From: Saccharomycodes ludwigii
Lineage: Eukaryota > Ascomycota > Saccharomycetes > Saccharomycodales > Saccharomycodaceae
Reading direction: 5' to 3'
DNA length: 64,000 nucleotides
Assembly: GCF_020623625.1 (NCBI RefSeq)
Contig: NC_060200.1
Location: 938,001 to 1,002,000, forward strand
The position numbers were made by a program, and so were the translations under genes. This document shows, in pieces, positions 23,342-23,596 of the stretch. The notes below the pieces were generated by a model that was given only the letters and a program-made list of their open reading frames with translations, was not told the origin of the DNA and searched no databases. Each line of letters starts with the position of its first letter. The first letter of the stretch is position 1.

Positions 23342-23454
23342 TTTATGCCCTTTTCAAGTTTGTTTTTTTTTTTTTTTTTTTTTTTTTTTCCATGATTAAA
23401 ATTTTGATTTAAAGAAGAATTGAAAGTATGAACTAATATAAGGATTTTGTTTTA

Positions 23455-23524: not shown

Positions 23525-23556
23525 CATGTAAATTTCCTTTTTTGGAAATTACAATG
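23525..23556. promoter_or_regulatory. a-specific gene operator of STE6 (Mcm1 box with flanking mating-type regulator sites)
   Basis: The centre is TTTCCTTTTTTGGAAA, a perfect CC(A/T)6GG Mcm1 box (23533-23548). On the left is CATGTAAAT (23525-23533), which fits the alpha2 half-site CATGTAAWT. On the right is ATTACAATG, whose complement is CATTGTAAT, resembling both an alpha2 half-site with one extra base and the CATTGT core bound by HMG-domain a2 proteins. Overall length (32 bp) and distance (about 185 bp upstream of the ATG) match the alpha2-Mcm1 operators of S. cerevisiae a-specific genes. It predicts cell-type-specific expression of STE6. Confidence 0.8.
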
Positions 23557-23562
23557 AAAATT

Positions 23563-23596
<34 letters not shown>

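Follow-up and report, generated by a model that had tools for sequence, protein, structure and literature searches.

The switch of a-specific genes from activation to repression is a well-known case of circuit rewiring. In S. cerevisiae, alpha2 and Mcm1 act through operators that lie in front of STE6 and the a-factor genes, while operators of the Candida/Kluyveromyces type, on which a2 acts together with Mcm1, are said to have been described by Tsong in 2006. For Lachancea kluyveri, hybrid a2/alpha2 control is attributed to Baker 2012 in a source that also counts the agglutinin genes AGA1 and AGA2 among the targets (PMC6405483). Tuch 2008 links species with purely negative control to changes at those Mcm1 residues that contact alpha2, and terms the earlier state putatively hybrid (PMC2253631). 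In Hanseniaspora, the better-known genus of the order Saccharomycodales and a member of the same family (Saccharomycodaceae) as Saccharomycodes ludwigii, the MATa idiomorph is described as encoding a2 alone and the MATalpha idiomorph as encoding alpha1 alone, the locus of H. opuntiae being a recombined one (PMC10970870). Saccharomycodales is the order closest to Saccharomycetales, with a split about 138 million years ago (PMC12711049), and a member that has both alpha2 and operators with split arms would help to date the gain of the alpha2 site.

Here, we analyzed a window of Sd. ludwigii DNA, i.e. the whole stretch of 64,000 nucleotides, which includes the gene of an ABCB exporter (Table 1). 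We take this gene as STE6, on the basis of the S. cerevisiae exporter among its relatives and of the element described below; among its solved relatives, mammalian ABCB1 entries outscore 7qkr. At -215 to -184 relative to the start codon, the window reads CATGTAAATTTCCTTTTTTGGAAATTACAATG, i.e. CATGTAAATTTCC-TTTTTT-GGAAATTACAATG, and these 32 bases are the sole match in the genome (12,500,424 bases, 8 contigs) when up to three mismatches are allowed. The initial annotation had described a perfect Mcm1 box with a perfect alpha2 half-site on one side and an arm with an HMG core on the other, and this anatomy was confirmed. The box, CCTTTTTTGG, is framed by TTTCC-N6-GGAAA, and 13 bases run from the C of the alpha2 arm through the end of the CC of the box. 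The right arm, ATTACAATG, matches CWTTGT on the minus strand, CWTTGTW being the HMG/SOX core, and doubles as a 5/7 alpha2 half-site at 12-base spacing. The element has the CCN6GG box of an alpha2-Mcm1 operator and lacks two alpha2 half-sites at 12/13 bases, its arms scoring 7/7 and 5/7 (T for A). Long T and A runs flank it (window 23363-23389 and 23564-23593), and these are perhaps nucleosome-poor promoter tracts.

Table 1. Coordinates of the STE6 gene, the parts of its upstream element and the related elements (numbers without a contig or locus prefix are window positions; far ends are relative to the start codon)
Feature	Position	Strand	Remark
STE6-type ABCB exporter, 1337 aa	19328..23341	-	solved-structure match to S. 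cerevisiae a-factor exporter 7qkr, 3.2e-107
alpha2-type half-site CATGTAAAT, gene-proximal arm	23525..23533	+	7/7 to CATGTAA
Mcm1 (MADS) box TTTCCTTTTTTGGAAA, flanks perfectly palindromic	23533..23548	.	TTTCCN6GGAAA
HMG-type arm CATTGTAAT, gene-distal	23548..23556	-	CWTTGT 6/6
Entire composite operator CATTGTAATTTCCAAAAAAGGAAATTTACATG	23525..23556	-	relatives in three further promoters
a-factor gene 1 element	C6:871745-871776 (L068:1861-1892)		far end -284
a-factor gene 2 element, weaker copy	L069:1044-1075		far end -457; flawed Mcm1 box
Wall-protein gene element	C2:586105-586136 (L073:1501-1532)		far end -698

Each half of the element was compared with chance. With up to one mismatch allowed, CATGTAANTTNCCN6GG gave one match in the 64-kb window (0 mismatches) and a mean of 0.12 in shuffled windows, with a match in 12 of 100 shuffles; CWTTGTN5CCN6GGAAA also gave one match with 0 mismatches, against a shuffled mean of 0.22 and a match in 21 of 100 shuffles. 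In a simulation of 20,000 1-kb promoters, built from the base-pair steps of the kilobase upstream of STE6, the HMG-type arm with a box occurred in 4, the alpha2 arm with a box in 6, and both together in 0. Perfect TTTCCN6GGAAA boxes number 58 genome-wide, against 17 for the reversed pattern. Among the 50 of them that were scored for arms, where one pair (L050/L058) resembles mutual copies, STE6 alone has CWTTGT 6/6 at the STE6 spacing and alone has CATGTAA 7/7, with scores of 5/6 and 6/7, respectively, found at none.

Related elements precede the two a-factor genes identified in the genome (Pfam MFA1_2) and a wall-protein gene. Read toward the gene, the sites are CATTGTAATTTCC AAAAAA GGAAATTTACATG (STE6), CTTTGTAATGTCC CTATCG GGAAATTTATATT (a-factor gene 1), CTTTGTAGATGCT CAAAAA GGAAATTTCTACT (a-factor gene 2), and GTTTGTAACATCC AAAAAG GGAAACTTACATG (wall-protein gene). 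Their orientation is the same in 4/4, with the HMG-type arm distal and the alpha2 arm proximal, and in 4/4 the distal arm carries a (C/G)WTTGTA core of HMG type whose spacing does not vary: it is 13 bases, counted from the first base of the arm through the CC (CT in a-factor gene 2). Against CWTTGT, this arm scores 6/6 in STE6 and both a-factor genes and 5/6 in the wall-protein gene. Scored as alpha2 at 12-base spacing, it reaches 5/7 in STE6, a-factor gene 1 and the wall-protein gene and 4/7 in a-factor gene 2, with T at the A preferred by alpha2 in all four, a base that the search pattern required in the case of the a-factor gene 2 site. The proximal arm, scored as alpha2 at 13-base spacing, is 7/7 in STE6 and the wall-protein gene, 5/7 in a-factor gene 1 and 3/7 in a-factor gene 2. 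By these per-site scores, the HMG-type arm, which lies at a fixed spacing beside an Mcm1 box in 4 promoters, is general, while the alpha2 arm is strong in two. STE6 and the wall-protein gene each have both arms within one promoter. In the two a-factor genes this pairing is weak, as the alpha2 arm falls to 5/7 and 3/7, so that a strong hybrid form is confined to STE6 and the wall-protein gene. The initial annotation had held that an ordinary, symmetric alpha2 half-site at this arm in other a-specific genes would speak against its reading, and none of the three further sites has one.

These scores bear on purely negative control as in S. cerevisiae, in which both arms would be alpha2 half-sites, spaced 13 (CATGTAAATTTCC) and 12 (ATTGTAATTTCC, imperfect), and a cells would express the genes by default through Mcm1. 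The 12/13 geometry indeed matches the S. cerevisiae operators, 2/4 sites have a perfect proximal arm, and TGTA is retained in the distal arm of 4/4 sites, where TTGTAAT may be taken for a weak alpha2 half-site. However, the CA of CATGTAA is missing from every distal arm, the scores being 4/7-5/7 as alpha2 against 5/6-6/6 as CWTTGT, and CTTTGT persists in the a-factor genes, where the alpha2 arm decays. We consider purely negative control unlikely. The opposite alternative is that a2-Mcm1 control is purely positive, the mode of Candida and, judged by gene content, of Hanseniaspora; CATGTAAAT would then be an AT-rich flank of the Mcm1 box whose likeness to an alpha2 site is accidental. This alternative agrees with the HMG-type arm being the sole arm retained in 4/4 sites, but it has to accommodate a perfect CATGTAA at alpha2 spacing in two genes, a 7/7 score seen at 1/50 perfect Mcm1 boxes (STE6).

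With the S. cerevisiae alpha2-Mcm1 operators, the Sd. ludwigii elements share the Mcm1 box, the CATGTAAATTTCC arm, the geometry and the position before STE6 and the a-factor genes, whereas the second arm is (C/G)WTTGTA in Sd. ludwigii and CATGTA in S. cerevisiae. As in the Candida/Kluyveromyces-type operators, one flank of the Mcm1 box carries an HMG-type core whose spacing is fixed, yet STE6 and the wall-protein gene of Sd. ludwigii add a full alpha2 half-site opposite. The proposed logic is the same as that of L. kluyveri, a yeast of a different order (Saccharomycetales), in a comparison made by description.

The further sites were reached by different routes. The a-factor gene 1 site was matched separately by each arm pattern with 2 mismatches apiece, and either pattern is noisy alone, with 37 matches genome-wide against 23 in the reversed control for the HMG-type arm and 32 against 10 for the alpha2 arm. 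The wall-gene site was found with the alpha2 arm plus box pattern at 1 mismatch and is, besides STE6, the sole match of the 32 with 0-1 mismatches; recovered without the HMG arm in the query, it still has 5/6 to CWTTGT in its other arm at the same spacing. A looser pattern, run over four loci, gave the a-factor gene 2 site, with one match each at STE6 and both a-factor loci and none at the STE2 locus. A 32-base composite pattern was designed post hoc, after all four sites were known, and omits the a-factor gene 2 site (4 mismatches, counted by hand). In 12.5 Mb, at up to three mismatches, it had 3 matches, namely STE6 (0 mismatches), a-factor gene 1 and the wall-protein gene (1 each), and 0 in the reversed control; the chance expectation in random sequence is 0.002 at exactly 1 mismatch, 0.05 at 2, 0.92 at 3 and ~0.97 at up to three. 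With leave-one-out matrices, each of the four sites outscored all 568,457 other windows of analyzed DNA, which are a subset of the genome with overlapping loci counted repeatedly, and under the four-site matrix the next best window reached 12.6 bits, compared with 36.0 for the weakest of the four. A Fisher test of 4/5 promoters versus 0/49 other Mcm1 boxes gave 1.6e-5, a value obtained with the wall gene chosen post hoc, the AXL1-like genes excluded and the promoters searched more freely than the boxes. Calculated by hand, the a-factor genes plus STE2 give 2/3 versus 0/49 (about 0.002), and adding the two AXL1-like genes gives 2/5 versus 0/49 (about 0.007).

The narrow range of the composite also bears on whether the distal arm is used by another HMG protein (Rox1/Ixr1-like) or Mcm1 partner, as a site unrelated to mating type. 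Candidates would come from the 7 HMG-box matches of the genome, which fall in about 6 genes, with no match on C5; one of the genes (L008) has a PRPRNAFILFRQ-type box. Genome-wide, however, the composite marks no genes other than STE6, one a-factor gene and one wall-protein gene, and we regard such a use as very improbable. A reading of CAATG as an alpha1 Q-box was dropped because the other three sites read CAAA, and Fkh2 or Yox1 motifs did not fit the shared arm.

The initial annotation had named, as its check, a CATTGT-like arm in other a-specific genes; such an arm is present at both a-factor genes and the wall-protein gene but not at STE2 and two AXL1-like genes. In the 1500 bp upstream of STE2, the best-known a-specific gene, CCN6GG boxes at -305, -250 and -186 have no a2- or alpha2-type arm at the spacings tried; partial arms at imperfect boxes (CATATAA, 6/7, at -1008; CTGTGT, 5/6, at -333) were considered chance. 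The three boxes lie inside about 130 bp (L010:1160-1300). AXL1 is a-specific in some yeasts, not all, and the regions upstream of the two AXL1-like genes (1050 and 754 bp) have no element, with single partial arms at imperfect boxes (CTTAGT, 5/6, at -980 of one copy; CATTAT, 5/6, at -397 of the other, the latter at the same spacing as the operator) that were also considered chance. These two M16 protease genes, L076 (C1:1873300-1875400) and L077 (C3:524800-526900), lie on different chromosomes and have near-identical N-terminal parts, and an identical 21-base match lies ~0.7-0.8 kb past both frames, which suggests a recent duplication extending past the gene.

The wall-protein gene (G000 C2:581506-585438; L078, L072, L073) encodes a repeat protein of 1311 aa, of which Ser and Thr together make up 48%; it begins with a signal-like segment and ends in a hydrophobic GPI-type tail, and its first 278 aa gave no Pfam or NCBIfam match. 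The protein is a candidate a-agglutinin core, by analogy with AGA1, which is a-specific in L. kluyveri (PMC6405483), and its gene is a putative a-specific gene in Sd. ludwigii.

With regard to the proteins that would read these sites, both MATalpha1 and MATalpha2 were located on C5, where their neighbor is a 1073-aa frame that we take to be SLA2. A MATa2 search of the genome with a made-up HMG query gave 42 candidates, none of which scored. As the assembly is that of a single-MAT, heterothallic MATalpha haploid (NBRC 1722 is described as heterothallic with one MATalpha locus, on chromosome E; PMC8567612), the absence of MATa2 is to be expected and decides nothing, although the initial annotation had counted such an absence against its reading. 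The Sd. ludwigii STE2 record maps to two contigs and the MATalpha2 record to one, counts that may hint at a second sequenced strain being MATa.

The homeodomain and N-terminus of MATalpha2 are well conserved, and a search of proteins with MATalpha2 recovered only itself. KIAIKDLLNP lies near its start, an N-terminus of the type that forms the Tup1 contact in S. cerevisiae, and its recognition helix carries QIKNWASNRRRK, presumably the base-reading residues; judged from its sequence, an alpha2 with both features is present. Compared with the S. cerevisiae chains of structure 1MNM, the Mcm1-contact strand of MATalpha2 reads SSFRIVKQN versus GLVFNVVTQD, where F, V and Q are unchanged, I stands in place of V, L is absent and S replaces V. 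Mcm1 has 7 differences from S. cerevisiae between ERRKIEIKF and NAPDDE, including KKAYELS and FTTPKF (Y, T) versus KKAFELS and FSTPKF (F, S), positions that we take to be alpha2-contacting. That both alpha2 and Mcm1 are encoded is in keeping with purely negative control, whereas Y and T in place of F and S argue against it, by the link made in Tuch 2008 (PMC2253631), if the two are contact residues. The diverged contact strand, which also counts against the hybrid reading, and the description of Hanseniaspora with a2 and without alpha2 (PMC10970870) fit purely positive control better; retention of alpha2, though possibly for a1-alpha2 alone, weighs against it, and we hold purely positive control to be improbable. 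Since Hanseniaspora idiomorphs are described with only a2 or alpha1, Saccharomycodes appears as a Saccharomycodaceae member that keeps alpha2, and the a2-encoding MATa idiomorphs of Hanseniaspora were counted for the hybrid reading in Sd. ludwigii.

We favor the reading of the STE6 element as a probable bipartite hybrid a2/alpha2-Mcm1 operator, i.e. a real, repeated and polar element, with a probability of roughly 0.55. In this hybrid operator, an Mcm1 dimer would occupy CCN6GG. In a cells, the HMG-box protein a2 would bind the gene-distal (C/G)WTTGTA arm beside Mcm1 and activate, and in alpha cells MATalpha2 would bind the gene-proximal CATGTAAAT arm with Mcm1 and repress through Tup1; it might also make a second, weaker contact with TTGTAAT of the distal arm. 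We infer that a2 and alpha2 occupy the sites, which way each acts, and that MATa strains of this yeast encode a2; the best reading of the four sites would make the a2 arm the general one. The hybrid nature proposed in the initial annotation is supported in part, by sequence and recurrence, whereas its claim that the operator preserves this state implies ancestry, which goes beyond what one species can show. Sd. ludwigii may keep the in-between state through which the mating control of baker's yeast presumably passed and, if hybrid, would offer an intermediate directly testable in a living yeast. The hybrid logic itself is already known from L. kluyveri, to which Sd. ludwigii adds another order, arms that are split and an alpha2 that is retained. 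We found no report of the element in Saccharomycodes or of hybrid control in Saccharomycodales in a literature judged mostly by title and covering few subscription journals.

Loss of one T turns CATTGTAATTTCC into CATGTAATTTCC and shifts the arm from 13 to 12 bases, and S. cerevisiae operators have unequal 12/13 spacing. A tentative extension, which we think doubtful, is that the polar operator (HMG distal, alpha2 proximal) predates the Saccharomycodales/Saccharomycetales split, such that the 12/13 asymmetry would be a scar left by the former a2 arm, with the alpha2 site newly gained in the 13-base arm.

Two minor observations concern other parts of the DNA. The precursors encoded by the a-factor genes (L068:1498-1608 and L069:1501-1617) share the end DNFGVKGVWVDPQCVIA and differ at the start. 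At the edge of the window, positions 1-300 and 1519-1818 form a 300-base direct repeat of 80% identity, the second copy of which lies within a minus-strand ORF (1145-1948); the repeat is perhaps a tandem gene pair cut by the window edge.
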